In this document: in pieces, positions 682 through 64,000 of the stretch
Numbering within the stretch: position 1 is the stretch's first letter
Layout of the letters: each line of letters starts with the position of its first letter
Assembly: GCF_002379095.1 (NCBI RefSeq)
Contig: NZ_NBZV01000005.1
Span: 1-64,000, forward strand
DNA from: Polaromonas sp. AER18D-145
GTDB lineage: Bacteria > Pseudomonadota > Gammaproteobacteria > Burkholderiales > Burkholderiaceae_C
Length of the DNA stretch: 64,000 nt
Direction of reading: 5' to 3'
Position numbers and translations under genes: made by a program
The notes under the pieces: generated by a model
What the model was told of the DNA's origin: nothing
What the model saw: only the letters and a program-made list of their open reading frames with translations
Databases searched by the model: none

Positions 682-1452
682 TTACCACCTCACCGGCCGG
701 CGGCCATGGCTGCGCAAAAAGTCGTTGGCGGCGCTGAAATGCCCGCAGCCAATGAAGGGTTTGGGGGGGCGCAGCGCCGACAGGGGCGAGGGGTGATTGG
801 CCGCCAGCACCAGGTGCCGGGCAGGAATCAGCGCCTGTTTGGTCTGCGCATGGGCGCCCCAGAGCATGAACACCACCGGCTCGGGTTTGGCCGCCACCGC
901 GGCGATCAGCTGGTCGGTCAGCACTTCCCAGCCCTGTTTGGCATGGCTGGCGGCCTGCCCTTCTTCCACCGTCAGGCTGGTATTGAGCAGCAACACGCCC
1001 TGGCTGGCCCAGCGTTCCAGCGAACCGCCGCTGTGCGCTTCCGGCGTCACCGCCGGGTCGCGCGCCAGCTCCTTGAACATGTTGCGCAGGCTGGGCGGGG
1101 GTTTCACGCCGTCGGGGACCGAAAAAGCCAGCCCCTGCGCCTGCCCCGGGCCATGGTAGGGGTCCTGGCCCAGGATCACGACCTCGACATCGGCCAGCGA
1201 GGTCAGCGCCAGGGCCCGGAAGGGCTGTGGCGGGTAGATGATGGCCCCTTGCGCGAGCCGCTGTTCGATGAACGCCCCCAGTTGCTGGCCGGTTTGGCTG
1301 GCCAGGAAATGACCGACTTCCGGCGCCCAATCGGCCGCCAGTGGCCAGTCGGCCGGATTCCAGCGCGTGAGGTGCCGGCCGTGGCCGCCGCCCTCCGGCA
1401 GCGGCTTGGGCCGAGTTTCAAAGGCCAGATCGGCCTGCAGTCCTTGTGGCAT
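682..1452 (-). CDS. ung: Uracil-DNA glycosylase
   Basis: This is a family 1 uracil-DNA glycosylase of 256 residues, which removes uracil from DNA as the first step of base excision repair in the cytoplasm. The water-activating motif GQDPYHG lies near residue 94, the uracil-binding LLNTSLTV near residue 155 and the DNA-intercalation motif HPSPLSA near residue 220, all intact and in the usual order. Length is normal for the family plus a short N-terminal extension. It follows trpC on the same strand, 16 bp after the trpC stop, so it may be read through from the trp genes. Confidence 0.97.
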
Positions 1453-1468
1453 GGGCGTGCGCGGCTAT

Positions 1469-2269
1469 TTAATCAGTAGCATCCGGAAACAGGCCCGCCA
1501 GCGCGACACCGGGGTCTTCGGCCCGCATGAAGGCCTCGCCGACCAGGAAAGCGTTGACTTTGGCCTCGCGCAGGCGCGCCACGTCGGCGGGGGTCGAAAT
1601 CCCCGACTCGGTGACCAGCAGGCGGTCGGCCGGCACGTCCTTGAGCAGGCCCAGCGTGGTGTCCAGCGACACCTCGAAGGTCTGCAGGTTGCGGTTGTTG
1701 ATGCCCAGCAGCGGCGTCTTGAGCTGGAGCGCGCGCTCCAGCTCGGCGCGATCGTGCACCTCCACCAGCACCGCCATGTCCAGCGACAGGGCCAACGCCT
1801 CCAGCGCCTTCATCTGCGCGTCGTCCAGGCAGGCGGCAATCAAGAGGATGCAGTCGGCACCCATGACGCGCGATTCGTAGACCTGGTAGGGGTCGACGAT
1901 GAAGTCCTTGCGCAGCACCGGCAGGCTGCAGGACGCACGTGCCTGCTTCAGGTAGTCGATGCTGCCCTGGAAAAAATCCTTGTCTGTGAGCACCGACAAA
2001 CATGCGGCGCCATGCTCCGCATAACTTTGGGCAATGTCCGCCGGAATGAAGTCGGCGCGCAACACCCCCTTGGAGGGACTGGCCTTCTTGATTTCTGCAA
2101 TCACGGCGGGCTTGCCGGCGCTGATTTTGGCGCGCAGGGCGCCGACAAAATCACGCGTCAGCACGCGCGACTCGGCGTCAAAACGCATCGCGGCCAGGGG
2201 TTTGCGCTTGAGCGCCGCGGCGACTTCTTCGCGTTTGACGGCCACAATCTTGTTCAGGATATCGGACAT
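1469..2269 (-). CDS. trpC: Indole-3-glycerol phosphate synthase
   Basis: This enzyme (266 residues) closes the indole ring in tryptophan synthesis, turning carboxyphenylamino-deoxyribulose phosphate into indole-3-glycerol phosphate. The beta/alpha-barrel signatures are present: [13 protein letters not shown] near residue 55, [15 protein letters not shown] near residue 118, [11 protein letters not shown] near residue 180 and VTESGI near residue 212. It is a monofunctional TrpC, without a fused TrpF domain. Three bases separate it from trpD, so the two are translationally close in the trp operon. Confidence 0.97.
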
Positions 2270-4012: not shown

Positions 4013-5065
4013 TCACGTCCTTGCGTTGAAAAATTGGCGAATCGCCGCCACAGCACGATCCACACCGGCGGTGTCCACGTCCAGGTGGGTGACAAACCGG
4101 AGGCGGTAAAGGCCGGTGGCCTGGACACCCTGCCCCGCCAGGTGCTTGAGCAAGGCCGCAGACTGTTCTCTGGCCGCCCCCGTCAAATCCACAAACACCA
4201 TGTTGGTCTGCGGCACCTCCACCTGCAGGTCTTCAATACCCGCCAGCCCGTCGGCCAGATGTTGGGCCAGCGCATGGTCCTGGGCCAGCCGCCCCACATG
4301 GTGGTCCAGCGCATGCGAGGCCGCGGCCGCCAGCATGCCGGCCTGGCGCATGCCGCCGCCCGCCATCTTGCGGATGCGATGCGCCCGGGCGATGAATTCG
4401 CGCGAGCCGCACAAGGCGGACCCCACCGGGGCACCCAGGCCTTTGCTGAAACACACCGAAACGCTGTCAAAACATTGCGCAATGCGCCGCGCCTCGGCCA
4501 GCGGGTTGCTGCCCGTTTGGGCGGCCTGCGCAACGGCGGCATTGAACAGCCGTGCACCGTCCAGGTGGCGGCTGAGTCCGTGTCTTTGCGCCAGGGCGGT
4601 CGCCTGCTGCACATACTCGAAAGGCAGCAGCTTGCCGCCCAGCGTGTTCTCCAGCGCCAACAGCCGGGTGCGCGCAAAGTGCGCGTCATCGGGCTTGATG
4701 GCCGCCTCGACGTCCGCCAGGGCCAAGGTGCCGTCGGGCTGGTGATTCAGCGGCTGCGGCTGCACGCTGCCAAACACCGCTGCACCGCCGCCTTCCCAGC
4801 GATAGCAGTGTGCCATCTGCCCCACGATGTATTCGTCGCCACGCTGGCAGTGGGCCAGGATGGCGCACAGGTTGCTCTGGGTGCCGGTGGGCACAAACAG
4901 CGCCGCCTCGAAGCCCAGCATCGCCGCGATCTTGTCCTGCAGCGCGTTCACACTCGGGTCGTCGCCGAACACGTCGTCACCCAGCGGCGCAGAGGCCATC
5001 GCGGCACGCATGCCTTCGGTGGGCTGCGTCACGGTGTCGCTTCTCAGGTCAACTTTTGTCGTCAT
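4013..5065 (-). CDS. ltaE: Low-specificity L-threonine aldolase
   Basis: This 350-residue fold-type I PLP enzyme cleaves L-threonine or L-allo-threonine to glycine and acetaldehyde. DLRSDTVTQPTEGMR at the N-terminus, HLDGARLFNAA near residue 167 and the PLP lysine in SVCFSKGLGAPVGS (K208) are diagnostic. The ATG lies at the very edge of a short interspersed repeat (5062-5117) that fills the whole gap to trpG, so the 5' untranslated region is repeat-derived. Gene order suggests cotranscription with trpG upstream and the LysE-type exporter downstream. Confidence 0.95.
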   Translation of the reverse strand: MTTKVDLRSDTVTQPTEGMRAAMASAPLGDDVFGDDPSVNALQDKIAAMLGFEAALFVPTGTQSNLCAILAHCQRGDEYIVGQMAHCYRWEGGGAAVFGSVQPQPLNHQPDGTLALADVEAAIKPDDAHFARTRLLALENTLGGKLLPFEYVQQATALAQRHGLSRHLDGARLFNAAVAQAAQTGSNPLAEARRIAQCFDSVSVCFSKGLGAPVGSALCGSREFIARAHRIRKMAGGGMRQAGMLAAAASHALDHHVGRLAQDHALAQHLADGLAGIEDLQVEVPQTNMVFVDLTGAAREQSAALLKHLAGQGVQATGLYRLRFVTHLDVDTAGVDRAVAAIRQFFNART

Positions 5066-5117
5066 TTATGCCACCAGCCCTTATGGAATATGCACAAGCA
5101 GCTACGCTTTTAATAGC
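5062..5117 (-). repeat. GCTAT-family short interspersed repeat, copy A
   Basis: Read on the minus strand the copy begins GCTATTAAAAGCGTAGC, continues with TGCTTGTGCATATTCC and AAGGGCTGGTGGC, and ends at the ltaE start codon. It occupies almost the entire trpG-ltaE gap. The opening inverted repeat and the AGGGCT/GGC blocks match the other copies listed in this window. Confidence 0.85.
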
Positions 5118-5131
5118 AAACAGAGCCAAGA

Positions 5132-8279: not shown

Positions 8280-9020
8280 TTAACGGGGCGCAAGCCCCGT
8301 TTTTGTTTTCAGGGCGGCCAGGTCCATCGCCGCAAGCGTGTCGACAAAACCATCGGCGTCCACACCGCGCACGGGCTGGCCATGGTTGTAGCCGTAAGTC
8401 ACCAGCAACACCGGACAACCTGCGGCCCGCGCCGCCTGCGCATCGTTGCTGGAGTCACCAATCATCAGCGTTCGCGAGGGTGCGCTTCCCAGTGCCTCGC
8501 AGGTCTTGCGCAGCGGCAGAGGGTCGGGTTTTTTCCGCTCGAACGAATCGCCGCCGAACACCAGGCTGAAAAAACCGTCCAGGCCCTTGGCCTTGAGCAG
8601 GGGCAGGGCAAACGCGGTCGGCTTGTTGGTCAGGCAGGCCAGCTTCAGGCCCTGGCGCTGCAGCAGCTGCAAGCCCTCCAGCACGCCCGGGTAGACGCTG
8701 GCATGCTGGCCGTTGATCGCCAGGTAGTGGCGCTGGTAGCTGCTCCAGGCAGCCGGCAACAGTTGCCCAACTGCTTCTTTATTGATAGCTACCGAAGACC
8801 GCCCGTCAAGGGATACAGGCCGATTCAGCACATGATCCAGGACAGCGCTGATCAAATGCTCCGAGCCCTTGCCTACCCGTGTCCCGACCACGGATCGTTC
8901 GACCGGCGACAGCGACAGATCGGCCAGCATCCGGTTCAGGGCGACCACAAAATCACCGAGCGTATCGACCATGGTGCCGTCCAGGTCAATGATCGCCGCA
9001 TCAAAAAAGCCGGAGCTCAT
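8280..9020 (-). CDS. gph: Phosphoglycolate phosphatase (HAD family)
   Basis: This 246-residue HAD phosphatase removes phosphate from 2-phosphoglycolate formed in DNA repair and oxygenation side reactions. The nucleophile motif AAIIDLDGTMVDTL is at the N-terminus, LTNKPT is motif II near residue 131, the lysine in FERKKPDPLP is near residue 160 and MIGDSSNDAQAARAAG is motif IV near residue 182. Residues of about 65-82 in the cap domain are encoded by a GCTAT-family repeat inserted in frame. Overlap with the convergent terminator means the last residues share bases with that hairpin. It pairs functionally with rpe, from which it is separated by two signalling genes. Confidence 0.95.
   Translation of the reverse strand: MSSGFFDAAIIDLDGTMVDTLGDFVVALNRMLADLSLSPVERSVVGTRVGKGSEHLISAVLDHVLNRPVSLDGRSSVAINKEAVGQLLPAAWSSYQRHYLAINGQHASVYPGVLEGLQLLQRQGLKLACLTNKPTAFALPLLKAKGLDGFFSLVFGGDSFERKKPDPLPLRKTCEALGSAPSRTLMIGDSSNDAQAARAAGCPVLLVTYGYNHGQPVRGVDADGFVDTLAAMDLAALKTKTGLAPR
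8282..8304 (+). terminator. Rho-independent terminator of the chalcone-isomerase-like gene
   Basis: The stem AACGGGGC/GCCCCGTT is perfect over 8 bp with a GCAA loop and is followed by a T-run. It lies 24 bp after the stop codon. The same bases encode the last residues of gph on the other strand. Confidence 0.85.
8773..8825 (+). repeat. GCTAT-family repeat, copy B (inside gph)
   Basis: The plus strand reads GCTTCTTTATTGATAGCTAC and then GCCCGTCAAGGGATACAGGCC, matching the repeat with a degenerate left arm. It lies antisense to gph and is translated there as SLDGRSSVAINKEA, without breaking the reading frame. Confidence 0.7.
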
Positions 9021-9026
9021 GCCCGC

Positions 9027-19801: not shown

Positions 19802-20776
19802 ATGGGTGAATTCGACCTGATCGCGCGTTATTTCACACGCCCCACGACCCGCGCCGTGCTGGGCGTCGGCGACGACTGCGCGCTGCTGCAGCCGGCCGCC
19901 GGCATGCAGATGGCCATTTCCTGCGACATGCTGGTCGAGGGCCGGCATTTCTTCGCCGATGTGGACCCGTTCGCGCTGGGTCACAAGGCGCTGGCCGTCA
20001 ACCTCAGCGACCTCGCTGCCTGCGGTGCGCAGCCGCTGGCCTTCACGCTGGCGCTGGCCCTGCCGCGGGCCGACGAAGCCTGGCTCGCGGCCTTCTCGCG
20101 CGGCCTGTTCGCCCTGGCCGATGCCCACGGCTGCGAACTGGTCGGCGGCGACACAACGCAGGGGCCGCTGAACATCTGCATCACCGTGTTCGGCGAGGTA
20201 CCGCGCGGGCAGGCGCTGCTGCGCTCGGGCGCGCGCGACGGCGATGAGGTGTACGTCAGCGGCACGCTGGGCGAAGCGCGGCTGGCCCTGGAAGCGCTGC
20301 GCGGCAGCATCGCCTTGCCGCACGAACGGCTGGCCGCCGCGCGCGCGCGGCTGGAGCAGCCCACGCCGCGTGTCGCGCTGGGCCTGGCGCTGCGCGGCAT
20401 CGCGACAGCGGCCATCGACGTGAGCGACGGCCTGCTCGGCGACCTCGGCCACATCCTGGAGGCCTCCGGCACCGGTGCCCGCATCGACACCTCGGTTGCT
20501 ATCAATTTACTAGCTGATGGCGCAGATTCCACAAGGGCTGAGGGCCATTTTTCGCATGAAACCCGGCTGCGCTGCGTGCTGGCCGGCGGCGACGACTACG
20601 AGCTGGCGTTCACCGCGCCGGTGTCGGCGCGAGCGGCGGTGCAGGCCGCGGCGCTGCAGGCGCAGACCGCGGTGACCCGCATCGGCGTCATCGAACACCC
20701 GCCCGGCCTGCGGCTGGTCGACGCCTCGGGGCATGCCGTGCCGGGCCGGTATGCGTCCTTCGATCACTTTGCCTGA
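19802..20776 (+). CDS. thiL: Thiamine-monophosphate kinase
   Basis: This 324-residue kinase makes thiamine diphosphate from thiamine monophosphate, the last step of cofactor synthesis. The N-terminus MGEFDLIARYF, the metal/ATP site VGDDCALLQP, CDMLVEGRHF, KALAVNLSDLAACGA, VGGDTTQG and AAIDVSDGLLGDLGH are all in place, and AGGDDYELAFTAP near residue 260 closes the active site. Residues of about 233-253 (AINLLADGADSTRAEGHF) come from an in-frame GCTAT-family repeat. The gene overlaps the convergent tautomerase gene by 13 bp. In related genomes it is usually followed by pgpA; here a LysR module lies between them. Confidence 0.96.
   Translation: MGEFDLIARYFTRPTTRAVLGVGDDCALLQPAAGMQMAISCDMLVEGRHFFADVDPFALGHKALAVNLSDLAACGAQPLAFTLALALPRADEAWLAAFSRGLFALADAHGCELVGGDTTQGPLNICITVFGEVPRGQALLRSGARDGDEVYVSGTLGEARLALEALRGSIALPHERLAAARARLEQPTPRVALGLALRGIATAAIDVSDGLLGDLGHILEASGTGARIDTSVAINLLADGADSTRAEGHFSHETRLRCVLAGGDDYELAFTAPVSARAAVQAAALQAQTAVTRIGVIEHPPGLRLVDASGHAVPGRYASFDHFA
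20498..20560 (+). repeat. GCTAT-family repeat, copy C (inside thiL)
   Basis: The copy begins GCTATCAATTTACTAGCTG and contains GGCGCAGATTCCACAAGGGC, GAGGGCCATTTTT and CGCATGAA, matching the intergenic copies. It is in the sense orientation and 63 bp long, a multiple of three, so thiL stays in frame. Confidence 0.85.
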
Positions 20777-22415: not shown

Positions 22416-23302
22416 TGCAACCCGACACGCCACCCGCCCCGCCCCCCGACGTCCAGCGCCTGCTGGCCAGTGCCACCTGCCTCGAAACGCCGTGCGGCAA
22501 CGGCAGCATGGTCTGGCACCGGTGGCAGCCCGATCCGGCCCGGGCCGGCGCGCCGCACCTGCCGGTGGTGCTGCTGCATGGCGGCAGCGGCAGCTGGACC
22601 CACTGGTTGCGCAACATCGAATCTCTGGTGGGCAGCGGCCGCGAGGTGCTGGCCGCCGATCTGCCGGGTTTTGGTGACTCGGCGCCGCCCGCCAGAGGCA
22701 ACGACGCCGACGCGCTGGCCGCTCCGGTGCAAGCGGGTCTGCAGGTTCTGCTGGGCGATGCCGCCTGCGACCTGGTGGCGTTTTCCTTCGGCGGCATGGT
22801 CGCCGGCTTTCTGGCGGCGCAGTGGCCGGCCCGCGTGGCGCGGCTGGTGCTCATCGGCTCCCCCGGCCTGGGCGTGGCGTCGAGAAACACCGTCACGCTC
22901 ACGGCCTGGCGCCACCTGCCCGACCCGGCCGAACGCGAGGCCGTGCACCGCAAGAACCTGGCCGCGCTGATGCTCTACCGGCCCGAGGCCATCACCGCGC
23001 TGGCGCTGAGTGTGCACAGCGACAACACGCTGCGCGACCGCATGAAGGGCCGCCGCCTGGCCTACACCGACGTGCTGGCGCGCACACTGGCCGAGGTGCG
23101 CTGCCCGGTGTACGCGATTTACGGCCGCGAAGATGCGCTGTACCGCGAGCGGCAGGAAGCGCTGGCGCTGGCCCTGCAGTCGGCGCCCAACTTTCGCGGC
23201 ATGCACTGGATAGACAACGCGGGCCACTGGGTGCAGTTCGAGCAACCGCAGGCCTTTGATGCCGTGTTGCGGACGGTTCTGGATGAAAGCTCCACCCCTT
23301 GA
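22415..23302 (+). CDS. Alpha/beta hydrolase
   Basis: This 295-residue soluble hydrolase has LPVVLLHGGSGSWTHWLRNI as the oxyanion segment near residue 48, the nucleophile elbow LVAFSFGGMVAGF near residue 117 and the final histidine in WIDNAGHWVQFEQP near residue 270. The elbow is A-F-S-F-G, not the classical G-x-S-x-G, a tolerated variant. The substrate is unknown. The start overlaps the LysR stop, indicating coexpression. A GCTAT-family repeat begins 4 bp after its stop codon. Confidence 0.88.
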   Translation: MQPDTPPAPPPDVQRLLASATCLETPCGNGSMVWHRWQPDPARAGAPHLPVVLLHGGSGSWTHWLRNIESLVGSGREVLAADLPGFGDSAPPARGNDADALAAPVQAGLQVLLGDAACDLVAFSFGGMVAGFLAAQWPARVARLVLIGSPGLGVASRNTVTLTAWRHLPDPAEREAVHRKNLAALMLYRPEAITALALSVHSDNTLRDRMKGRRLAYTDVLARTLAEVRCPVYAIYGREDALYRERQEALALALQSAPNFRGMHWIDNAGHWVQFEQPQAFDAVLRTVLDESSTP

Positions 23303-23305
23303 AGT

Positions 23306-23369
23306 GCTATGAAAAACATAGCTACTTGCGCACGTTTTCATTGGGCCGCGTGCCATTTTTACGCATGAA
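23306..23369 (+). repeat. GCTAT-family repeat, copy D
   Basis: The copy begins GCTATGAAAAACATAGC, followed by TACTTGCGCACG and TTGGGCCGCGTGCCATTTTT, then ACGCATGAAA. It starts 4 bp after the hydrolase stop and lies in the pgpA leader. It is one of the best-preserved copies in the window. Confidence 0.88.
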
Positions 23370-23960: not shown

Positions 23961-24472
23961 ACCCTTCGTCACTACCAAAAAGTGAGCTGTCTTCGCCCGT
24001 CCTGGCTGGGCTGCTGGCCGATTTGCTTCTCAAAAAAGGCTGGCTGCTGGCCACCGCCGAAAGCTGCACCGGCGGCATGATCAGCGCCGCCTGCACCGAC
24101 CTGGCCGGTTCGAGCAACTGGTTCGAGCGCGGCTTTGTCACCTACTCCAACGAGGCCAAGACCGAGATGCTGGGCGTGGCTGCGGCGCTGGTCACCGCCC
24201 ACGGCGCGGTCAGCGAGGAAGTCGCGCGCGCCATGGTGCAGGGCGCCATCACGCATTCCAGAGCCCGGGTCGCCGTGGCGGTGACCGGTGTGGCCGGCCC
24301 CACCGGCGGCAGCCGCGCCAAGCCGGTGGGCACGGTCTGGTTCGGCTTCATGGTGGACGGACAGGTCAGCAGCGAGATGCAACACTTCGACGGCGACCGC
24401 GCGGCCGTGCGGTCGGCCACCGTCCAACATGCGCTGCAGCGGCTGGTGCAACTGCTGGCCGACCAGCCCTAA
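23957..24472 (+). CDS. pncC: Nicotinamide-nucleotide amidohydrolase (CinA C-terminal domain protein)
   Basis: This 171-residue stand-alone CinA C-terminal domain converts nicotinamide mononucleotide to nicotinic acid mononucleotide in pyridine nucleotide recycling. The signature LLATAESCTGGMISAACTDLAGSS lies near residue 30, WFERGFVTYSNEAKTEMLGV near residue 55 and AVTGVAGPTGG near residue 112. The start is a GTG overlapping the pgpA stop. No CinA N-terminal domain is present, as is normal for this shorter form. Confidence 0.94.
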   Translation: MNPSSLPKSELSSPVLAGLLADLLLKKGWLLATAESCTGGMISAACTDLAGSSNWFERGFVTYSNEAKTEMLGVAAALVTAHGAVSEEVARAMVQGAITHSRARVAVAVTGVAGPTGGSRAKPVGTVWFGFMVDGQVSSEMQHFDGDRAAVRSATVQHALQRLVQLLADQP

Positions 24473-26398: not shown

Positions 26399-26492
26399 CC
26401 CCCACGGTCGCTCACTACGTGTAGCTCCCTGCCCCCCGAGGGGGCCGCTGCGCCTGCGGCCCGGCAAAGCCGGTTTCGCGGCCCCGGCTTGA
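26399..26492 (+). repeat. 3'-end repeat family, copy R2
   Basis: The copy begins on the base after the TAG stop: CCCCCACGGTCGCTCAC, then GTGTAGCTCCCTGCCCC, CCCGAGGGGGCCGCTGCGCC and a CCCGGCAAAGCCGG stem. It matches R1 and the RNA-sense strands of R3 and R4. Confidence 0.87.
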
Positions 26493-31050: not shown

Positions 31051-31109
31051 AAGTCGCGCGACGGTGCTGCCTGCCATGAACCTGCGACGTCCAGCGGTCA
31101 GTTTGATCT

Positions 31110-31166
31110 GCTAGAAAATAGATAGCTACTAGCGCCCGTCCCCATTGGGCCAGAGGCCAAAAAGGC
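31110..31166 (+). repeat. GCTAT-family repeat, copy E
   Basis: GCTAGAAAATAGATAGC is followed by TACTAGCGCCCG, CCATTGGGCCAGAGGCC and AAAAAGG, in the usual order. It lies between the GNAT gene and the attI-like site. Confidence 0.83.
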
Positions 31167-31212
31167 TATTGAATTTGCGTGGTCGGCACGTCAGAAAGCG
31201 ACAAAAGGGAAT

Positions 31213-34141: not shown

Positions 34142-34576
34142 ATGCTCGATCGTTTCAACGCGGGGTACCCCGTCCGTTACACCGCCCTTGTCCTGTGTGC
34201 GGCCGGTTTCCTGCTGGGCGCTTTCATGCTGCTCGATTCCGGCCGGGGCCTGCTGGCGCTGCTGCTGTTCGGGGTTCTCTGCGGCGTTGGCATCCACGAT
34301 GTCCTGCAGACCAAGAGCTCGATCCTGCGCAACTACCCGGTGATGGGCCACCTGCGTTTTCTGCTGGAGTTCATCCGCCCCGAGGTGCGCCTGCTGTCGA
34401 ACCTGGTGCTGCATGTGAAAGAAGGTTCGCTGCTGACCGACCTGGATAGCCAGCACCAGGTCTTCAAGCTGTACTGGCCGCTGGCCAACGCGCACAGTTT
34501 TGCGGTCAGCAAGCCCAAGGACAAGGTCTCCAGCACCGGCGAAGAGGAGCCCGCTGCCGCGGTGGTGCCGGCATGA
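34142..34576 (+). CDS. Membrane protein resembling the N-terminus of FMN-binding glutamate synthase-like proteins
   Basis: This 144-residue protein has two hydrophobic segments (about 14-30 and 37-52) followed by LQTKSSILRNYPVMGHLRFL and EFIRPEV, a stretch typical of the region just before the catalytic domain in the membrane-anchored FMN-binding glutamate synthase family. The catalytic domain itself is absent, and after IRPE the sequence no longer resembles that family. It may be a stand-alone remnant or a recruited membrane anchor. Its stop overlaps the serine hydrolase start (ATGA). Confidence 0.6.
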   Translation: MLDRFNAGYPVRYTALVLCAAGFLLGAFMLLDSGRGLLALLLFGVLCGVGIHDVLQTKSSILRNYPVMGHLRFLLEFIRPEVRLLSNLVLHVKEGSLLTDLDSQHQVFKLYWPLANAHSFAVSKPKDKVSSTGEEEPAAAVVPA

Positions 34577-35802
34577 CGGATCCTTCTGCCGCCACTGGCC
34601 GTTCCGGGCTGCCAGCGGATTCGATGCAAGCCCCTCGGCCTGACCCGGCGGCGACGGTCGACGCAGTTCCCGGCACCGACGCCATCGGCTCCGTCCGCGA
34701 TCTTTACGATGGCGCCCTGCTGCCCGACCTGCAGGTCAACACGCTTCGCCATGTGGACCGCCTGTTCCCCACCCGCCTCGTGGCGCGCGGTGCCCACGTG
34801 CACGCCTTGCCCGTCAGCTCCCGGCCCTGGCCCGCGATCGGGTTCGACGACGGCGGCCAGCGCTGGGATCTTTTCGACTACCTGTCCCTGAACCGTGTCA
34901 GTGGCTTGCTGGTCCTGCAGAACGGCGAGGTCGCCTTCGAGCATTACGCGCTGGGCAATACACCGGAGACGCGCTGGACCTCGATGTCCATGGCCAAGTC
35001 CATCACCGCCACCCTGGTCGGTGCGGCCATCCACGACGGCCACATCGGCGGCCTGGACGAGCAGGTCTGCCGCTATGTCCCGGCGCTGGCCGGCTCGGCC
35101 TATGACGGCGTGACGATCCGGCAGGTCCTGCAAATGAACTCCGGCGTGCGCTGGAATGAAACCTACACCGACCCCCACTCCGACCGGCGCCGCCTGCTGG
35201 AGGCGCAACTGAGCCAGCGCCCGGGCGCCCTCATGGCCTGCATGGCCGCGTTGCCGCGCGCCAACCCACCGGGCACGGCATGGAATTACAGCACCGGTGA
35301 AACCCAGGTGGCCGGCGCCGTGCTGCGTGCTGCCGTCGGGCGGCCACTGTCCGATTATTTGTCCGAGCGTATCTGGGCCCGCTTCGGCATGGAGGCCGAT
35401 GCCAGCTGGTGGCTGGAGTCGCCAGGCGGGATGGAAGTGGCGGGCAGCGGCTTGAGCGCACGCCTGCGCGACTTCGCACGTTTTGGCCTGTTCATGCTGG
35501 GCGGCGGCGTGGCCGGTGGCGCGCAGATCCTGCCCCAGGGCTGGATCGAGGAAGCCAGCAGCGGCAAGGCAGTGAACGGCAGTGTGGTGCCGTATGGCTA
35601 CATGTGGTGGCCGATGGAGGCTTCGGCCGGCGCGGTGCACCAAGGCGCTTATCTCGCCATCGGCATCTTTGGCCAGTACCTGTACATCCACCCCGCAAGG
35701 CAGGTGGTCATCGCCCAGTGGAGTGCCATGCCCAAGCCCAAAGGAACGGTACCGATCCAGCCCGCGAGCTTCTTCGCTGCGGTCGTGCAAGCGCTGGGCT
35801 GA
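34573..35802 (+). CDS. Serine hydrolase of the beta-lactamase/class C fold
   Basis: This 409-residue protein belongs to the penicillin-binding-protein-like serine hydrolases (beta-lactamase family, class C type). The nucleophile S-x-x-K motif is in RWTSMSMAKSITATLVG (S and K three apart) and the second motif is YSTGE in WNYSTGETQVAG. The third motif near the C-terminus is not a clear KTG. Activity is probably esterase or peptidase-like, not antibiotic hydrolysis. There is no obvious signal peptide. It is translationally coupled to the preceding membrane protein. Confidence 0.85.
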   Translation: MTDPSAATGRSGLPADSMQAPRPDPAATVDAVPGTDAIGSVRDLYDGALLPDLQVNTLRHVDRLFPTRLVARGAHVHALPVSSRPWPAIGFDDGGQRWDLFDYLSLNRVSGLLVLQNGEVAFEHYALGNTPETRWTSMSMAKSITATLVGAAIHDGHIGGLDEQVCRYVPALAGSAYDGVTIRQVLQMNSGVRWNETYTDPHSDRRRLLEAQLSQRPGALMACMAALPRANPPGTAWNYSTGETQVAGAVLRAAVGRPLSDYLSERIWARFGMEADASWWLESPGGMEVAGSGLSARLRDFARFGLFMLGGGVAGGAQILPQGWIEEASSGKAVNGSVVPYGYMWWPMEASAGAVHQGAYLAIGIFGQYLYIHPARQVVIAQWSAMPKPKGTVPIQPASFFAAVVQALG

Positions 35803-35839
35803 AACTGTTCTTCCCGCGTACGCGCTCCAGCGGAAAATC

Positions 35840-36280
35840 TCAAATTGCTATTAAATAAATAGCTGATTGCGCCCGTACATCAAGGGCCAGCAGCCTTTTT
35901 TTCATGCAAAGCACGGCCTGATCCTTGCTCAGCAGCCAGGCTTTGTGCGCCACCGCCAGGTCGAGGAAGATCTGGTCGTCGGCGTCGCTGCAGGTCACCG
36001 GCGCCTTGCTGCCGGCGGCCACGGTGCGCGCATGGGTGTCGAAGGCCAGCAGCACTTGCGCAGCAACCAGGCCGTCGCGCGTCATCCGCTTGGCGACCTG
36101 CGGGTAGTCCAGCACGCGCGCCAGCTCGACACGCATGGCCTCGGTGGCCAGCCATTGCAGCTGCCCGGTGATCACTGCGCTTTTGAGCGCCTGCGCCGCC
36201 AGGTCGCCAAACACAAACAGGTCCAGCACGATGTTGGTGTCGAGCACCACGCAATCACCGGCCCGTGCCTGGGTGTCCAT
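35840..36280 (-). CDS. PIN-domain protein
   Basis: This 146-residue PIN ribonuclease-fold protein carries the acidic residues of the family in CVVLDTNIVLDLF, a mid-protein glutamate (TEAMRVEL) and SDADDQIFLDLAVAH. It could be a toxin of a toxin-antitoxin pair, but no small antitoxin gene is adjacent. I use the ATG at 36280; a TTG at 36295 is possible. The last about 20 residues (MKKRLLALDVRAQSAIYLIA) are encoded by a GCTAT-family repeat, which also brings the gene close to its stop codon. Confidence 0.85.
   Translation of the reverse strand: MDTQARAGDCVVLDTNIVLDLFVFGDLAAQALKSAVITGQLQWLATEAMRVELARVLDYPQVAKRMTRDGLVAAQVLLAFDTHARTVAAGSKAPVTCSDADDQIFLDLAVAHKAWLLSKDQAVLCMKKRLLALDVRAQSAIYLIAI
35847..35910 (+). 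repeat. GCTAT-family repeat, copy F (C-terminus of PIN gene)
   Basis: GCTATTAAATAAATAGC is followed by TGATTGCGCCCGTACATC, AAGGGCCAGCAGCC and TTTTTTTCATGCAA, an almost ideal copy. It is antisense to the PIN gene and encodes that protein's last residues. Confidence 0.88.
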
Positions 36281-36291
36281 GGCGACCGGGC

Positions 36292-37695
36292 TCAAGGTGT
36301 GGCGGCGGGCTTTTTCTCGCGCGCCGAGCCGGCCACCATGTCAAAGCGGAACAGCCGGCATTCGATCGGGCCGTTCCACATCGGCACGCGGCGCGATTCC
36401 TTGAGCCGCATTTTTTGCGGCAGCTTCATGTCGGGCGTCAGCACGTGGGCGGTCCAGCCGGCGTAGTTTTTCTTCCAGTGGCTGGCCAGTTGCGGAAAGA
36501 AGTCCGAGGCCTCCTCGCCCCAGGCATTGAGGGCCTGCTCGCGGCCCGGGTTGGCCGAGCGGTCGCGCGAGGTTTCGAAGGCTGGCTCTTCGCGGGTGTC
36601 GCGGCTGTCACCGGCGTCACGGCTCAAAGGCTGGCCGAACTCGTCGATGGGCTGGTTGCGGTGGTCGTGGGGCGCCTGGCCGCCCTGCTGGCGGCGCTGG
36701 TCGCGCCCCTGCAGGGCGGGGATGCCGGCCACACCGGCCACATCGATACGCTCGCCATAAGGTGGGTTCACCAGCATCACGCCCGAAGGCGCGGGCGGCA
36801 TGCGCTGCAGCGCGTCGCCGCCGCGCAGCTGTACCGCGTGCGAGACGCCGGCGCGTTCGGCGTTGCGTTCGGCGAAGTCGACCATGCGGAAGGACACGTC
36901 GCTGCCGAACACCGGCGCCATCGGCGGCGTGATGGCCTGCTCGGCCTGGTCCAGCAGGCCTTCCCAGACGTGGGGCTGGAAAGGCACGAATTTTTCAAAC
37001 GCAAAATGCCGGCCCATGCCGGCGGCGATGTTGCAGGCAATCTGCGCCGCCTCGATGACGATGGTGCCCGAGCCGCAGCAGGGGTCGTACAGCGGCACGC
37101 CCTGCTGGCACAGGCCGTTTTCACCGCTCCAGCCGCTGGCGGCAAGCATGGCGGCGGCCAGGGTTTCCTTCAACGGCGCGTCACCCTTGTCCTCGCGCCA
37201 GCCGCGTTTGAACAGCGGCTCGCCCGAGGTGTCGATGTAGAGCGTGACGGTGTCGGTGGTCAGGTGGGCGTAGACGCGCACGTCGGGCCAGCGGGTGTCG
37301 ACATCGGGACGCACATCGTATTTGTCGCGGAAGCGGTCGGCGATGGCGTCCTTGATCTTGAGCGCGGCAAAGTTCAGGCTGGTCAGCGGGCTGTGCTGCG
37401 CGGTGATCTCGACCTTGAAGGTCTGCTTGGGTGTGAACCAGATTTCCCACGCCACGCTGGCCGCGGCGTTGTACAGGTCCTGCTCGCTGCGGTAGCTGTT
37501 GTGCTGCAGCTCGATCAGCACGCGCTGGGCCAGCCGGCTGTGCAGGTTGAGCTGCAGCGCATCGCGCCAGGAGCCCGTCACCTGCACGCCGGCGCGCCAG
37601 GCCTTGCCCTGGGCGCCGGTGATGCGTTTGACCTCGGCGGCGAGAAGTTCCTCGACGCCGGCGGCGCAGGGTAAAAATAACTGGAGTTGGTTCAT
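36292..37695 (-). CDS. THUMP-domain SAM-dependent RNA methyltransferase (RlmL/YpsC-like)
   Basis: This 467-residue protein has a THUMP RNA-binding region (about 45-160) and an N2-guanine-type methylase domain with DPCCGSGTIVIEAAQ at 204 and NPPYGER at 310. It would methylate guanine in rRNA, as RlmL does at 23S G2445; the exact target is inferred from the family. Residues 320-398 form an unusual hydrophilic, arginine/aspartate/glutamine-rich insertion between the catalytic NPPY and the C-terminal FFPQLASHWKKNY. The start overlaps the rpoN stop by ATGA. Confidence 0.9.
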   Translation of the reverse strand: MNQLQLFLPCAAGVEELLAAEVKRITGAQGKAWRAGVQVTGSWRDALQLNLHSRLAQRVLIELQHNSYRSEQDLYNAAASVAWEIWFTPKQTFKVEITAQHSPLTSLNFAALKIKDAIADRFRDKYDVRPDVDTRWPDVRVYAHLTTDTVTLYIDTSGEPLFKRGWREDKGDAPLKETLAAAMLAASGWSGENGLCQQGVPLYDPCCGSGTIVIEAAQIACNIAAGMGRHFAFEKFVPFQPHVWEGLLDQAEQAITPPMAPVFGSDVSFRMVDFAERNAERAGVSHAVQLRGGDALQRMPPAPSGVMLVNPPYGERIDVAGVAGIPALQGRDQRRQQGGQAPHDHRNQPIDEFGQPLSRDAGDSRDTREEPAFETSRDRSANPGREQALNAWGEEASDFFPQLASHWKKNYAGWTAHVLTPDMKLPQKMRLKESRRVPMWNGPIECRLFRFDMVAGSAREKKPAATP

Positions 37696-39227
37696 AAAGA
37701 TTTTCGGAGGTTGGCCGGTGCAATACGCAGGGCTTCGCGGTACTTGGCAACGGTGCGGCGCGCGCACTCGATGCCCTGCTCCTTGAGCATCTCGGAAATC
37801 TGGTTGTCGCTGAGCGGCTTTTTCAGGCTCTCTGATGCAACAAACTGCTTGATCAGCGCGCGTACCGCGGTGCTGGACGCATTGCCCCCGGTCTCGGTGC
37901 CCAGCGCCGAGCCGAAGAAATACTTGAGCTCGAAGGTGCCAAAGGGCGTGCTCATGTATTTGGCGGTGGTGACACGCGAAATTGTCGATTCGTGCAGGCC
38001 CAGCTCGTCGGCGATTTCGCGCAGCACCAGTGGCCGCATGGCGAGTTCGCCGTGGGTGAAGAAGTTTTTCTGGCGCTCGACAATCGCGCTGCTGACGCGC
38101 AGGATGGTGTCAAAGCGCTGCTGGATGTTCTTGATGAACCAGCGCGCCTCCTGCAGGCGCTGCTGCAGCGCCTGCCCGCCCTGACCCTTGTTCTGCTTGA
38201 GGGCGTTGGCGTAGATGTCGTGCACGCGCAGGCGCGGCATCACGTCGCTGTTGAGCGACACCTTGAAACCGCGGCCGGACTTGACCACCAGCACGTCGGG
38301 CACGATCAGGTTGCGCTCGACGTTGACAAAACGCCGGCCCGGCTTGGGGTCGAGCCGGCCGATCAGGCCGATCGCGCCCTTGATCACCGCATCGGGGAAA
38401 CCGCAAAGCTGCGACAGGCGCTTGACGTCGCGCTTGGCCAGCAGCTCCATGGGCTGCTGGCACATCGCAATGGCGGCGCGGGTCTCGTCGTTGTCCTTGC
38501 AGTCGAGCAGTTGCAGGCTCAGGCACTCGGCGAGGTTGCGCGCGCCGACGCCGGCGGGCTCCATGTGTTGCAGCAGCTTGAGCGCCACCGCGAACTCATG
38601 CTCCACCGCTTCAAGCTGCTCAAGATCGTCGCCGGCCAAGCCGGCGGCCAACGCCGCCAGGCTGTCTTCGAGGTAGCCGTCATCGTTGAGCGATTCGATC
38701 AGGAAATGCAGCGCGGCCTTGCCCTCGGGCGACAGGCGCAGCGACAGGGCCTGCCGGTGCAAGTGGTCCTGCAGCGACTCCTGGCTGCGCGCCAGTTCGG
38801 TGGCATCGACATCGCTGTCGTCGTTGTTGTTCTTGCGCGGCGTGGCGTCGCCACCCCACTCGCTGTCGTCGGGCGCGGTGTCGACGCTGCCATCGCCCTC
38901 CCAGCTTTCCTCGAGTTTGGCCTCGCTGCTCGGTTCTGCATCATTTTGGCCTGCAGCCCCCGTATCTTCTGCGGATACTGCTATTGAATCAGTAGTGGAT
39001 TCAAACTCGCGGGTTTCCTGGCTGACCGGCGTGTCGACCTGGCCGAGGCCGAAATCCTCGCGCGGGGCGGCCTCCTCGGCCACTTCAAGAAACGGGTTTT
39101 CGTCGAGCATCTGCTCGACTTCCTGGCTCAGCTCCAGCGTCGACAGCTGCAACAGGCGGATCGACTGCTGCAACTGGGGCGTGAGCGCCAGATGCTGCGA
39201 GACGCGAAGAGACAACCCCTGCTTCAC
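37692..39227 (-). CDS. rpoN: RNA polymerase sigma-54 factor
   Basis: This 511-residue sigma-54 directs transcription that needs AAA+ activators (nitrogen and other regulons). The N-terminal activator-interaction region starts MKQGLSLRVSQHLALTPQLQ and is glutamine/leucine rich, a core-binding region follows, and the helix-turn-helix and the RpoN box ARRTVAKYREAL are at the C-terminus. The acidic linker at about residues 75-96 contains an in-frame GCTAT-family repeat, tolerated because that linker is variable. It is downstream of lptA-lptB, as in other proteobacteria. Confidence 0.97.
   Translation of the reverse strand: MKQGLSLRVSQHLALTPQLQQSIRLLQLSTLELSQEVEQMLDENPFLEVAEEAAPREDFGLGQVDTPVSQETREFESTTDSIAVSAEDTGAAGQNDAEPSSEAKLEESWEGDGSVDTAPDDSEWGGDATPRKNNNDDSDVDATELARSQESLQDHLHRQALSLRLSPEGKAALHFLIESLNDDGYLEDSLAALAAGLAGDDLEQLEAVEHEFAVALKLLQHMEPAGVGARNLAECLSLQLLDCKDNDETRAAIAMCQQPMELLAKRDVKRLSQLCGFPDAVIKGAIGLIGRLDPKPGRRFVNVERNLIVPDVLVVKSGRGFKVSLNSDVMPRLRVHDIYANALKQNKGQGGQALQQRLQEARWFIKNIQQRFDTILRVSSAIVERQKNFFTHGELAMRPLVLREIADELGLHESTISRVTTAKYMSTPFGTFELKYFFGSALGTETGGNASSTAVRALIKQFVASESLKKPLSDNQISEMLKEQGIECARRTVAKYREALRIAPANLRKSL
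38941..38998 (-). repeat. GCTAT-family repeat, copy G (inside rpoN)
   Basis: Read on the minus strand: ACTACTGATTCAATAGCAG, then TCCGCAGAAGATACGGGGG and GCTGCAGGCCAAAATGATGC. Its codons line up one to one with those of copy C in thiL, so both insertions use the same reading frame of the element. Confidence 0.75.
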
Positions 39228-39270
39228 AAGAGCTCCAACATCCCGGGAAGTGGCATGTATTTTTCAAGCA

Positions 39271-39362
39271 TGGGCCGCGGAACCGGCTTTGCCGGGCCGC
39301 AGGCGCAGCCCCCTTGAGGGGGGAAGGGGCTACACGAAGTGAGCCTCCGACGGGGGGGAGCC
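39271..39362 (-). repeat. 3'-end repeat family, copy R3
   Basis: Read on the minus strand the copy starts 7 bp after the lptB stop with GGCTCCCCCCCGTCGGAGGC, then TCACTTCGTGTAGCCCCTT, CCCCCCTCAAGGGGGCTGCG and a CCCGGCAAAGCCGG stem. It fills the lptB-rpoN gap and keeps the orientation of the upstream gene. Confidence 0.83.
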
Positions 39363-54789: not shown

Positions 54790-57006
54790 ATGACGACAAC
54801 AACCCCACGCACATCGCTCCACGGCCTGCAGGTGGCCACGGTTTTGCAACGCTTTGTCGATGACCAGGTCCTGCCCGGCACCGGCGTGGACCGTGCCGCC
54901 TTCTGGAAGGGTTTTGACGCCATCGTGGCAGACCTGGCTCCGAAAAACATCGCCCTGCTGGCCGAGCGCGACCGCCTGCAGACCGAGATGGACAGCTGGC
55001 ACAAAGCCAACCCCGGACCGATTGCCGACATGAAGGCCTACCGCGCCTTTCTGGAAAAAACCGGCTACCTGGTGCCCCAGCCGAAGAAAATCACGATCAC
55101 CACGGGCAATGTGGATGCCGAACTGGCCAAACAGGCCGGCCCGCAACTGGTGGTGCCCATCCTGAATGCGCGTTATGCGCTGAACGCGGCCAATGCGCGC
55201 TGGGGCTCGCTGTACGACGCGCTGTACGGCACCGACGTGCTCTCCGAAGACACCGGCGCTGAAAAAGGCAAGGGCTACAACCCGGTGCGCGGCGCCAAGG
55301 TGATCGAGTACGCACGTTATGTGCTGGACCGCACCGCGCCGCTGGTCAAGGGCTCGCACATCGATTCGACCGGGTATGCACTTCGGGGCGGCAAGCTGGT
55401 CGTCGCCCTCCAGGGCGGCAAAACCACCACACTGGCCGACGCGAGCCAGCTCGTCGGTTACCAGGGCAAGGCCTCGGCGCCGTCGTCGGTGCTGTTGCAG
55501 CACAACGGCCTGCACATCGACATCCGCATCGACCGCAGCACGCCGATCGGCAAAAGCGATGCGGCCGGCGTGAGCGACCTGGTGGTGGAAGCGGCGCTCT
55601 CCACCATTCTGGATCTGGAGGACTCGGTGGCGGTGGTCGATGCCGACGACAAGGTGCTGGCCTACAGCAACTGGCTGGGCATTCTGCAGGGCACGCTGAC
55701 CGAAAGCGTCACCAAGGACGGCAAGACCTTCACCCGCGGCCTGAACCCGGACCGCGAGTACACCTCGCCCAAGGGAAAACCCGTCACCCTGCACGGCCGC
55801 TCGCTGATGTTTGTGCGCAACGTCGGCCACCTGATGACCAACCCGGCCATCCTCTACACTGCCGCCGACGGCTCGACGAAAGAAATTCCCGAAGGCATCC
55901 TCGACGCCGTCGTCACCACGACGATCGCGATTCACGACCTGAAGCGCAAGGGCAAAAAAGGCATCAAGAACTCGCGCAAGGGCTCGGTCTACATCGTCAA
56001 GCCCAAGATGCACGGCCCGGCCGAAGTCGCCTTTGCCGCCGAGCTGTTCAGCCGTGTCGAAAAAATGCTGGGGCTGCCCGACAGCACCGTCAAGCTCGGC
56101 ATCATGGACGAAGAGCGCCGCACCAGCGTCAACCTGAAAGCCTGCATCGCCGCGGCCAAAAGCCGCGTGGCCTTCATCAACACCGGCTTCCTGGACCGCA
56201 CCGGCGACGAGATGCACACCGCCATGTACGCCGGCCCCATGATCCGCAAGGGCGACATGAAAAGCAGCGCCTGGATTGCGGCTTACGAGAAGAACAACGT
56301 GCTGGTGGGCCTGTCCTGCGGCCTGCGCGGCAAGGCGCAGATCGGCAAGGGCATGTGGGCCATGCCCGACCTCATGAAAGCCATGATGGAGCAGAAGATT
56401 GCCCACCCCAAAGCCGGCGCCAACACTGCCTGGGTGCCCAGCCCGACCGGCGCGACGCTGCATGCGCTGCACTACCACCAGGTCAAGGTCAGCAAGGTAC
56501 AGAAAGACCTCGAAAAAGTCGGCGCCAACAAGGAGCGCAATGCCCTGCTGAACGGTTTGCTGCAGGTTCCCGTCACGGCCACGCCCGACTGGAGCGCCGA
56601 GGCGAAACAGCAGGAACTCGACAACAACGCCCAGGGCATCCTCGGTTATGTGGTGCGCTGGATCGACCAGGGCGTGGGCTGCTCCAAGGTGCCCGACATC
56701 CACAACGTCGGCCTGATGGAAGACCGCGCTACCCTGCGCATCTCCAGCCAGCACATGGCCAACTGGCTGCTGCATGGCGTGGTGACGAAAGCGCAGGTGA
56801 AGGAAACCTTTGAACGCATGGCCGCCGTGGTGGACAAGCAGAACGCCGGCGACCCGCTGTACCAGCCCATGGCCGGCCACTTCGACACTTCAGCAGCCTA
56901 CAAGGCAGCGTGTGACCTGGTGTTCAAGGGCCTGGAGCAACCGAGCGGCTACACCGAGCCGCTGCTGCATGCGTGGCGCCTGAAGGTGAAGGCCGGCAAC
57001 GCTTGA
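54790..57006 (+). CDS. glcB: Malate synthase G
   Basis: This 738-residue enzyme condenses glyoxylate with acetyl-CoA to malate. Its length and motifs are those of the monomeric G form: an N-terminal domain starting [38 protein letters not shown] near residue 270, [16 protein letters not shown] near residue 335, [19 protein letters not shown] near residue 437 and [19 protein letters not shown] near residue 464. A pyrimidine-rich leader precedes the ATG. A perfect terminator follows 72 bp after the stop. The haloacid dehalogenase gene immediately upstream suggests use in C2 acid metabolism. Confidence 0.97.
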
Positions 57007-57009
57007 CCC

Positions 57010-57064
57010 GCTACTGAATCAATAGCTGCCTCCGCTCTATCAGGGCCGGGGCAGGATTTGATAC
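57010..57064 (+). repeat. GCTAT-family repeat, copy H
   Basis: GCTACTGAATCAATAGCTGC is followed by CTCCGCTCTATCAGGGCC and GGGGCAGGATTTGATA. It starts 3 bp after the glcB stop codon. Confidence 0.8.
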
Positions 57065-57078
57065 ACAAACCCATCTCC

Positions 57079-58460: not shown

Positions 58461-58538
58461 GCCGTTCGGGCCCGGCCACGCACCAACAGTGAGCGCCAGC
58501 CGAAAGGCTGCAGCAACTGCACGGGTTGCCCCCGATTC

Positions 58539-58598
58539 GCTATGCAAAACATAGCTGCAGGCGACCGTTCCTGTTGGGCTCATGGCGGATTTGCCTGC
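58539..58598 (+). repeat. GCTAT-family repeat, copy I
   Basis: GCTATGCAAAACATAGCTGC is followed by AGGCGACCG, GTTGGGCTCATGGCGG and ATTTGCC. It lies in the leader region of the DUF1631 gene. Confidence 0.82.
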
Positions 58599-58859
58599 AC
58601 ACCCCCGCCGCCCGGGTCATCCGCGCGAAAAGCGGCCCCCGGAAGGCACCGGCGGTTGCGGCCAGGCTGTCGGAATGTAAGCAGCGTCTCTTTGCTGCGC
58701 AGTGCGTTAGAAATCGTTACAAGATACTTCTGCATTTCCAGCAGCATCCCGCCAGTTCAGACCACACTTCGGGGTCGGGTGAACCGGGATTTCCCCCCCA
58801 CCATTGACTTGACAGCTCTTCAGGCCCACGCCTCTCTCTTAACCACATCGCCCTCCACC

Positions 58860-61412: not shown

Positions 61413-61452
61413 CGCAGGCTTGCCGGCCCATCCCGGGCCCCACCCCCGGTAC

Positions 61453-61510
61453 GCTACAAATTCAATAGCACCCTGCGCCCGCCATTTGCGGGCCGGAAGC
61501 CGATTTCACA
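61453..61510 (+). repeat. GCTAT-family repeat, copy J
   Basis: GCTACAAATTCAATAGCACC is followed by CTGCGCCCGCCATTTGCGGG and CCGGAAGCCGATTTCAC. It lies between the DUF1631 gene and the YoaK-like gene. Confidence 0.8.
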
Positions 61511-61556
61511 AAAAATCTTGCAGCCAGCGCCGGCGTCGGCGGTTCCCCGCACCATA

Positions 61557-63491: not shown

Positions 63492-63520
63492 CTGCCCCGG
63501 GCCGCATCGGCCAGCCGATC

Positions 63521-63580
63521 GCTATGAAATCAGGAGCTGCTTGCGTCCACGGATACTGGGCCAGAGCGTTTTTTGATCAG
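63521..63580 (+). repeat. GCTAT-family repeat, copy K
   Basis: GCTATGAAATCAGGAGCTGC is followed by TTGCGTCCACGG, ACTGGGCCAGAGCG and TTTTTTGATCA. Its right end overlaps the stop codon of the zinc peptidase gene on the other strand. Confidence 0.82.
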
Positions 63581-64000
63581 GGCCGGCTTTGCTGCTGGCC
63601 CTGATCCTGTCCCTGTCCATCGCCTGCCCCGTCGCGGACGGAAGTCACCACCAGGTGGATGAAATGCAGCTTGGCCACCACTTCGCGCGGCAGCACAAAG
63701 GGGTAAAAGTCGGGCTGCCCCATGGCGCGCGACATTTCGTTGAGCAGCGTGGTCAGCCGGGTCCACTGGTTCAGGAAGTCCAGGAACACCTGCGCCCCCG
63801 GGTGATCCGGCTGGTACAGCGCATCCAGCGTGAAGGGCGTGAACTCCAGCTGGGCGCTTTCGGCCGACAGGCCAAAACTCAGGGCCGTGTCGACGGTGTC
63901 GCGCATGTGCAGGTAGTGGGCCCAGCACTCGGCCCAGTCTTCCCAGGGATGCACGCTGGCGTACGCACTCACGTAGTGCAGCGCCCAGTCCGGCCGCGGC
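63577..64000 (-). CDS. Zinc-binding metallopeptidase-like protein, C-terminal fragment
   Basis: The visible 141 residues are the end of a protein that continues beyond the right edge. PRPDWALHYVSAYASVHPWE and DWAECWAHYLHMRDTVDTA resemble the region after the zinc site in the putative zinc-binding metallopeptidase family; the HExxH motif would be outside the window. The C-terminus ends in a glutamine/glycine-rich tail (GQGQDQGQQQSRP). The stop codon lies in a GCTAT-family repeat. No start is visible. Confidence 0.7.
   Translation of the reverse strand, partial: PRPDWALHYVSAYASVHPWEDWAECWAHYLHMRDTVDTALSFGLSAESAQLEFTPFTLDALYQPDHPGAQVFLDFLNQWTRLTTLLNEMSRAMGQPDFYPFVLPREVVAKLHFIHLVVTSVRDGAGDGQGQDQGQQQSRP

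Follow-up and report, generated by a model that had tools for sequence, protein, structure and literature searches.

How does a protein-coding gene come to end in a copy of a dispersed repeat? In the window, by which we mean the whole 64,000-nucleotide stretch of DNA that was analysed, this question is raised by a PIN-domain gene. The initial annotation proposed that the last about 20 residues of the PIN protein are the antisense translation of a repeat copy, that the stop codon lies just beyond this copy, and that an open antisense strand would make gene capture and 3'-end replacement easy. The PIN translation ends ...CMKKRLLALDVRAQSAIYLIAI*, and its tail can also be written ...VLCMKKRLLALDVRAQSAIYLIAI. 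The protein passes both curated profile cut-offs, matching PIN_3 with 58 bits against a cut-off of 27 (residues 16–126) and TIGR00305 with 39.7 against 29.15. Its named relatives belong mostly to Polaromonas and other Comamonadaceae, the closest being from Polaromonas with an identity of up to 95%. An antitoxin was not found as the upstream neighbour of the gene; this place is occupied by an RlmL-like gene. The features of the locus and the copies of the repeat in the window are collected in Table 1.

Table 1. Positions of the PIN locus features and of the repeat copies in the window.
Feature	Position	Strand	Detail	Basis
PIN-domain gene (PF13470 PIN_3; TIGR00305)	35840..36295	-	151 aa	ORF and profile matches
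PIN stop codon	35840..35842	-	directly past the repeat	sequence and ORF
Repeat copy at PIN end (~68-bp dispersed family, sense strand)	35843..35910	+		
Hairpin of the repeat, GCTAT-n7-ATAGC	35847..35863	+	minus strand encodes A-I-x-x-I-A	sequence
Codon -1 (CTT), boundary of native-gene and repeat DNA	35909..35911	-	GC3 collapses here	GC3 in orthologues
Last 23 PIN codons in repeat DNA	35843..35911	-	encode the final helix and strand, then a floppy end	
Beta-lactamase-family (PF00144) gene, convergent	34573..35802	+	ends 40 bases before the repeat	
RlmL-like methyltransferase gene	36292..37767	-	upstream of PIN	
Copy inside thiL (19802-20776, +)	20494..20560	+	sense frame; 44.5 bits	
Weak, decayed copy in gph-like ORF (8280-9026, -)	8769..8836	+	8.7 bits	
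Intergenic copy	23302..23369	+	57.5 bits; training copy	
Intergenic copy	31106..31173	+	44.3 bits	
Repeat copy	58535..58602	+	53.3 bits; training copy	
Copy between tandem genes	5054..5121	-	42.8 bits	
Repeat copy	61449..61516	+	32.9 bits	
Repeat copy	1417..1484	-	28.0 bits	
Repeat copy	63517..63584	+	26.1 bits	
Copy between convergent genes	57006..57069	+	24.5 bits	
Weak repeat copy	23980..24034	+	23.4 bits	

Our analysis confirmed that the PIN gene ends in a dispersed repeat of about 68 bp. A covariance model (R1), aligned from 29 other copies of the same genome with the PIN copy excluded, matches 35843–35910 on the plus strand with 61.5 bits (E 1.9e-18). Similarly, the leave-one-out PSSM score of the PIN copy is 73.6, against -26.5 at the 99.99% quantile of the null; this quantile was used as the reference, the counts of null scores at or above a site including true neighbouring copies in the flanks. 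Among the 150 genome-wide matches listed, the PIN copy ranks 26. The last 22–23 PIN codons are written in the antisense strand of the repeat and the stop codon adjoins it, so both the repeat origin of the protein end (about 22 codons) and the position of the stop stand as annotated.

The repeat unit of about 68 bases is composed of the hairpin GCTAT-n7-ATAGC, followed by TGcttGCGCccgt-n5-aaGGGCtggaGgCC and an AT-rich tail. Its GC content is 40% at the PIN copy and 0.40–0.58 across the copies in the window. The strict repeat pattern, with which the training copies for R1 were gathered, gave 81 rows in the whole genome (75 distinct places by our own count) and 0 in a reversed control, and thus the repeat is not due to chance. 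Both orientations are about equally represented (38 and 43 rows). R1 finds at least 150 copies in the genome, and 11 matches with E < 1e-4 in the window, two of which are training copies; extrapolating from these 11, several hundred copies per genome are likely. In the bacterial family to which the window's genome belongs, at least one match (E 1e-4) is present in 71 of 200 genomes and in 56 of 141 sampled genera. The spread is patchy: 129 of the 200 family genomes have no match at E 1e-4, and others reach at least 25 matches. Within the window, the copy in the gph-like ORF, whose name comes from the initial annotation, is weak (8.7 bits, E 0.012 in a search of 401 bases) and is absent from the window-wide R1 match list up to E 1. 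Its peptide SLDGRSSVAIN (8781–8813, minus strand) had been placed in the same phase as ALDVRAQSAIY of the PIN protein (35855–35887, minus strand), and this holds, both peptides being offset by 12 bases from the starts of their copies (8769 and 35843).

Based on gene calls from a caller trained on seeds and using codon usage only, we determined the context of 98 copies (11 in the window plus 27 and 60 elsewhere, out of at least 150), six of which failed a simple hairpin check as weak copies and were kept in the count. The neighbouring genes are convergent for 35 copies, divergent for 3 and tandem for 44; a further 9 copies are located in genes, and 7 have a called gene on a single side. The gene list of the window, taken as the baseline, contains 8 convergent and 8 divergent neighbours by our own count, so the ratio of 35 to 3 (p 7e-8) reflects a real preference for 3' ends. 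Both strands fold somewhat better than simple base shuffles, the z-score of 60 copies averaging -1.44 for the sense and -1.40 for the antisense strand. Judged from its position and these modest folding z-scores, the most likely role of the repeat is that of a 3'-end signal between genes, acting as DNA or as RNA. A search with 4227 Rfam models gave nothing for 35800–35960 up to E 1, and over the whole window at gathering scores it gave three tRNAs and nothing else; identity with a known RNA family was dropped for want of an Rfam match.

The copies look old, because no pair is more alike than the 95% point of shuffles, with which the top identity in variable columns (0.73) coincides. No recent duplicates stand out among the copies by this measure, which lends no support to present mobility. 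Two copies of the window's genome lying 0.9 kb apart, C59:101701–101768 and C59:102619–102686 (L276 and L270), are 0.73 alike in the variable columns; this value is shared with two other pairs, and the two copies are perhaps a local duplication. In one genome of the genus (L174), three copies lie within about 1.2 kb (348–415, 488–555 and 1498–1565), one at a PIN end and two opposite in orientation and 140 bases apart (65 and 66 bits). Conservation amounts to about 61 bits over 68 columns, a figure inflated by choosing the copies with a hairpin-fixing pattern. For the same reason, the test of hairpin covariation is circular; among the 5 pairs, 0 changed on both sides. Moreover, of 89 copies, 58 have T,T and 18 have A,A at model columns 55 and 57, and 46 have AA and 14 have TT at columns 39–40, with strong linkage. 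These complementary block forms look like a micro-inversion inside a foldable unit.

To compare PIN genes with and without the repeat, we read the PIN tails of 156 loci, comprising 17 named genomes, the window, 109 family loci and 29 loci of a genus sample; the family loci (L050–L158) represent the best 109 of 179 matching genomes other than the window's own. The strict hairpin is present at the homologous base in 41 of the 156 loci. Among the 109 family loci, a hairpin-bearing PIN gene occurs only in genomes that hold the repeat (12/62 vs 0/47, Fisher p 0.001). Eleven of the 156 rows are duplicates and were left out of the tree, and from 145 loci, after exclusion of 13 intermediate rows and 12 'none' rows (PSSM > -15), 33 repeat-bearing orthologues were set against 87 repeat-free ones. 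The GC3 of the repeat-bearing group averages 0.85 upstream and only 0.44 in the tail, whereas in the repeat-free group GC3 is normal (group mean 0.81–0.85). A drop of more than 0.2 in the tail is observed in 33/33 repeat-bearing and 7/87 repeat-free orthologues. In particular, the break coincides with the very end of the repeat, where GC3 at codon -1 is 0.06 in the former and 0.95 in the latter, and codon 3 is AAA in 33/33 repeat-bearing orthologues. Collectively, the GC3 drop, its break at the edge of the repeat and the shared AAA codon indicate that the tail is encoded by repeat DNA.

The residues encoded in this DNA fall into two halves. The first half consists of residues common to orthologues with and without the repeat (KRLxxxGV): of the 87 repeat-free orthologues, 71 carry K/R at codon 3, 74 carry R at codon 4, 73 carry L at codon 5, 71 carry G at codon 9 and 59 carry V at codon 10, and among the 33 repeat-bearing ones the same codons encode K in 33, R in 32, L in 33, G in 21 or D in 8, and V in 26. 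The second half (RAQSAIYLIAI) is repeat-specific, with RAQ at codons 11–13 in 16/33 repeat-bearing and 0/87 repeat-free orthologues. The A-I/M after the RAQ position, found in 33/33 repeat-bearing genes, is no independent evidence because this group was chosen by the hairpin that encodes A-I/M. The initial annotation had regarded a C-terminal peptide retained by repeat-free orthologues as telling against a repeat-derived end; such retention is seen for the first half and not for the second. In addition, it had proposed to see whether orthologues end before the repeat, which simple 3' capture would predict. They do not, as the distance from SKD to the stop does not shrink without the repeat: the median is 25 residues with the repeat and the lower quartile is 24 without it, and more than half of the repeat-free tails extend beyond the 27 codons read. 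Many PIN relatives that do not belong to the family terminate in another last strand, ...I.TPe.f (27 loci, L370–L396, the last one cut). In the AlphaFold2 model of the PIN protein of the window (146 aa), the pLDDT is 91 for residues 121–130 and 88 for residues 131–140, a block that reaches the A of RAQSA, and it falls to 53 for the last six residues, IYLIAI.

The conserved first half together with the GC3 drop in the tail suggests that the native end was overwritten, not appended to. Our preferred explanation, which we consider somewhat more likely than not, is that the native 3' end of PIN was overwritten by a repeat copy that did not lengthen the gene by its own size, and that the same happened in purK and ubiA and, with a small gain, in thiL, purL and aceE. 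The copying step itself is one that we infer. It would most likely be ectopic copying into a site, such as gene conversion at a short stretch that resembles a copy or the annealing of a single strand of the repeat at a replication fork. At the PIN locus, the overwriting would have taken place in an ancestor of several genera. It might have survived because the antisense frame is often open and yields a peptide that is suitable at this position. Elsewhere, in other lineages, GC-rich codons would have returned as the copy decayed, with the protein being retained. The PIN tail would then be a tolerated passenger, its first half being held to the native residues by selection. The openness of the antisense strand, asserted in the initial annotation for the element as a whole, applies to 15 of 29 copies, in which the PIN frame is open along the entire 68 bases, and not to the other 14; the other two antisense frames are open in 14 and 0 copies, and the three sense frames in 12, 19 and 0. 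The PIN tree (114 columns) is too poorly resolved, with 73 of 142 inner branches open, for gain and loss of the hairpin to be separated; on it, the hairpin label requires at least 20 changes, against 39 in shuffles, and 2 are forced by well-supported branches.

Furthermore, the repeat is found in frame inside unrelated genes, namely purK, ubiA, purL, aceE, ileS, thiL and ygfZ, whose names rest on NCBIfam, as well as a DUF3025 gene and an aminopeptidase gene. The annotation had also suggested looking for other genes that end in the same peptide, and at least one was found: an IMS-family (dinB-type) polymerase (L226) ends ...RRAQAATESIATDQLF, a similar antisense peptide in the PIN frame; at this repeat-derived end, GC3 declines from 0.84 to 0.41. 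For purK, whose copy was held out of R1 and scores 58.4 bits, the repeat region aligns with two solved PurK chains without a gap and the added length is 0; the segment is 52 aa long in 29 of 30 loci, 7 of these hairpin-bearing (best 30 of 56 matching genomes). Similarly, the UbiA segment, whose copy is a training copy of R1, is 52 aa long in 27 of 30 loci, 8 of them hairpin-bearing (best 30 of 59 matching genomes), and repeat-bearing UbiA shows no gain, with 277 residues over 280 profile positions. The net change is +7 residues for thiL relative to two solved chains, +11 for purL and +9 for aceE relative to outgroups, and ileS is 9 residues shorter. Across the family, thiL usually has 62 aa between anchors with or without the hairpin, and 50, 56, 56 and 60 aa in four GC-rich genes. 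Thus, in none of the six genes measured does the length change come near +22, and the gains of 7–11 residues in thiL, purL and aceE imply that the overwriting is not always exact.

A held-out model matches the purK and ubiA sites in other genera too. Repeat-free purK sites mostly retain a likeness to the repeat (L314 ranks 1/8212 in its locus), but L334 ranks 1219/8140. Low-scoring ubiA rows range from rank 19/7558 to 4860/7558, three of them lying within the top 0.5% of the locus and some having no likeness to the repeat at all. The likeness at hairpin-free sites may be a remnant of the repeat or may have preceded it, so that evolution in place stays conceivable. Among the purK loci L308–L337, the GC-rich, hairpin-free L314 and L332 keep VYEGNLP or VYPGNLP like the repeat-bearing genes, and L334–L336 start with VPAP, as do the two solved PurK chains. 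For purK, this suggests that repeat-derived residues outlived the repeat DNA. Among the antisense in-gene copies, counting those flanked on both sides by coding evidence and those that are read through (as in PIN and L226), and excluding mere crossing ORFs, 7 of 8 share the PIN frame (p 0.043 vs open-frame odds of 15:14); without L035, a gene that we take to be rarA, the count is 6 of 7 (p 0.075). We regard this as a weak frame preference.

An alternative to overwriting is that the 68-base motif was built in place by mutation under selection or drive at the DNA level, at coding sites that tolerated it, as is the case for DNA uptake sequences; it might, for instance, serve a competent cell as a site of binding or uptake. 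Such sequences (DUS/USS) are about 10–30 bases long, are dispersed in both orientations, are length-neutral in coding genes and are paired near gene ends. The window's repeat resembles them in its length-neutral sites in coding genes, its nearly equal orientations and its enrichment between convergent genes; moreover, no recent duplicates stand out, the same sites are kept across genera, and likeness is graded at hairpin-free sites, as evolution in place would lead one to expect. At about 68 bases, with roughly 61 bits over its columns (a sum inflated by the choice of copies), the repeat is however far longer than the known uptake sequences, and the held-out purK copy is alike over its full length within a gene, including the tail columns. 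We consider construction in place unlikely, albeit the best placed of the alternatives to overwriting.

Plain capture of a 3' end is rated lower still, as clearly unlikely. Here, the repeat would have inserted near the end of PIN, the frame would have run into it and gained a new C-terminus, and the native residues downstream would have been lost later. RAQ and the residues that follow are indeed specific to the repeat, the stop codon comes right after it, and the dinB-type gene is arranged alike. Nevertheless, K/R-R-L-x-x-x-G-V is encoded in register by most orthologues that lack the repeat, whose ends do not precede its position, no displaced native tail was seen by eye 3' of the hairpin in the PIN loci, and purK and ubiA have gained no length. 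The presence of the first half of the tail in repeat-free orthologues, and the absence of an end before the repeat, thus argue for overwriting more than for capture. What remains of the annotated gene capture or 3'-end replacement is that repeat DNA supplies the C-terminus of the PIN protein; a native end was overwritten more than a new one was captured.

It is quite improbable that PIN was the founder, with the repeat born from its 3' end plus a hairpin and spreading from there. The PIN tail and the repeat are in full-length register, the PIN site is kept over many genera, and hairpin-free PIN tails are somewhat nearer to the repeat than other parts of their loci (44/91 in the top 10% of the locus, 15/91 in the top 1%). 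Against such an origin, the antisense of the 29 copies ranks only 23 among 732 frame-offset combinations (z 1.8) when compared with a profile of 77 repeat-free PIN loci, and 50 of the 62 repeat-holding genomes have a PIN gene without the strict hairpin. Finally, the idea that an AT-rich native gene end resembles the repeat by coincidence, in favour of which the native tail (KRLxxLG) is compatible with the repeat's antisense frame, is refuted to the point of being negligible by the held-out match, by the GC3 drop in every repeat-bearing orthologue and by the strict hairpin at the same base of so many loci.

Compared with known repeat systems, the window's repeat shares features with several and coincides with none of those considered here. 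Rickettsia palindromic elements (RPEs) are likewise short, palindromic, located in frame inside unrelated genes and tolerated there, and the available text of their description gives them about 150 bp and integration as translational fusions (PMC10969869). The window's repeat differs by description: it occurs in other bacteria, and none of the six genes measured has grown by the length of the repeat (purK and ubiA 0; thiL, purL and aceE 7–11 residues). RU-1, RU-2 and RU-3 of enterobacteria are also small repeats whose reading frames are used in annotated genes, whereas they are 103–168 bp long and are presented, in the available part of the source, as fusions that form new proteins and not as overwriting (PMC2759123). 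The GTAG- and CGTC-tagged REPs of the REP/RAYT system are, as the accessible text of the paper has it, palindromic and high in copy number, some lying in genes including error-prone polymerases (PMC3733652); REPs are palindromes of 20–40 bp, whereas the window's unit has about 68 bp with a hairpin at one end only. Polaromonas, Acidovorax, Delftia, Rhodoferax and Variovorax are not named in the main text of that paper. RAYT was rejected as the mobiliser of the repeat, as the genome has a single Y1_Tnp gene without adjoining copies: the 3327-base locus of its only Y1_Tnp match contains no R1 match up to E 1. Terminal inverted repeats of the MITE kind were not seen, the consensus ends of the repeat not being complementary by eye.

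The betaproteobacterial repeat element (BRE) overlaps with the repeat in its hosts, with 29 copies in Polaromonas sp. JS666, some of them in coding sequences; in the available text, Bordetella BREs are 75–91 bp long (one partial copy of 50) and have 69% GC on average (PMC3110155). Identity of the repeat with BRE, compared by description and not by sequence, was rejected on GC content (0.40–0.58 vs 69%) and length. The window contains a second dispersed repeat, GC-rich and with a CCCCGAGGGGGC core, at four places (25763–25859, 26395–26491, 39264–39330 and 41025–41056); its longest pair is about 97 bp, and it fits the published description of BRE (about 90 bp, 69% GC) as far as that text is available (PMC3110155), being likened to BRE by description only. 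The repeat at the PIN end is not described in the titles and abstracts of the literature searched, a search that had most subscription journals outside its reach. In-gene palindromic repeats are known as insertions that the protein has to tolerate; here, codons seem to have been replaced in a way that keeps the frame and often the length.

Extending the preferred reading of overwriting from single genes to the whole family, we tentatively propose, as a possibility held with clear doubt, that the repeat spreads by rewriting and not by inserting: gene segments of about 68 bases would be replaced in frame and at equal length, as in biosynthetic genes such as purK and ubiA, through annealing at the fork or a drive linked to transformation, and the residues would outlast the DNA. 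As the window's genome has at least 150 sites and 56 of the 141 genera sampled carry the family, it is feasible to trace how sites are gained and lost and how codons recover, which makes the spread of non-autonomous bacterial repeats testable by genome comparison. If codons are indeed replaced without a change in length or frame, the repeat could enter genes in which an insertion would do harm. Moreover, such an overwriting repeat would give rise to correlated changes of amino acids, which in an alignment would pass for ordinary divergence.
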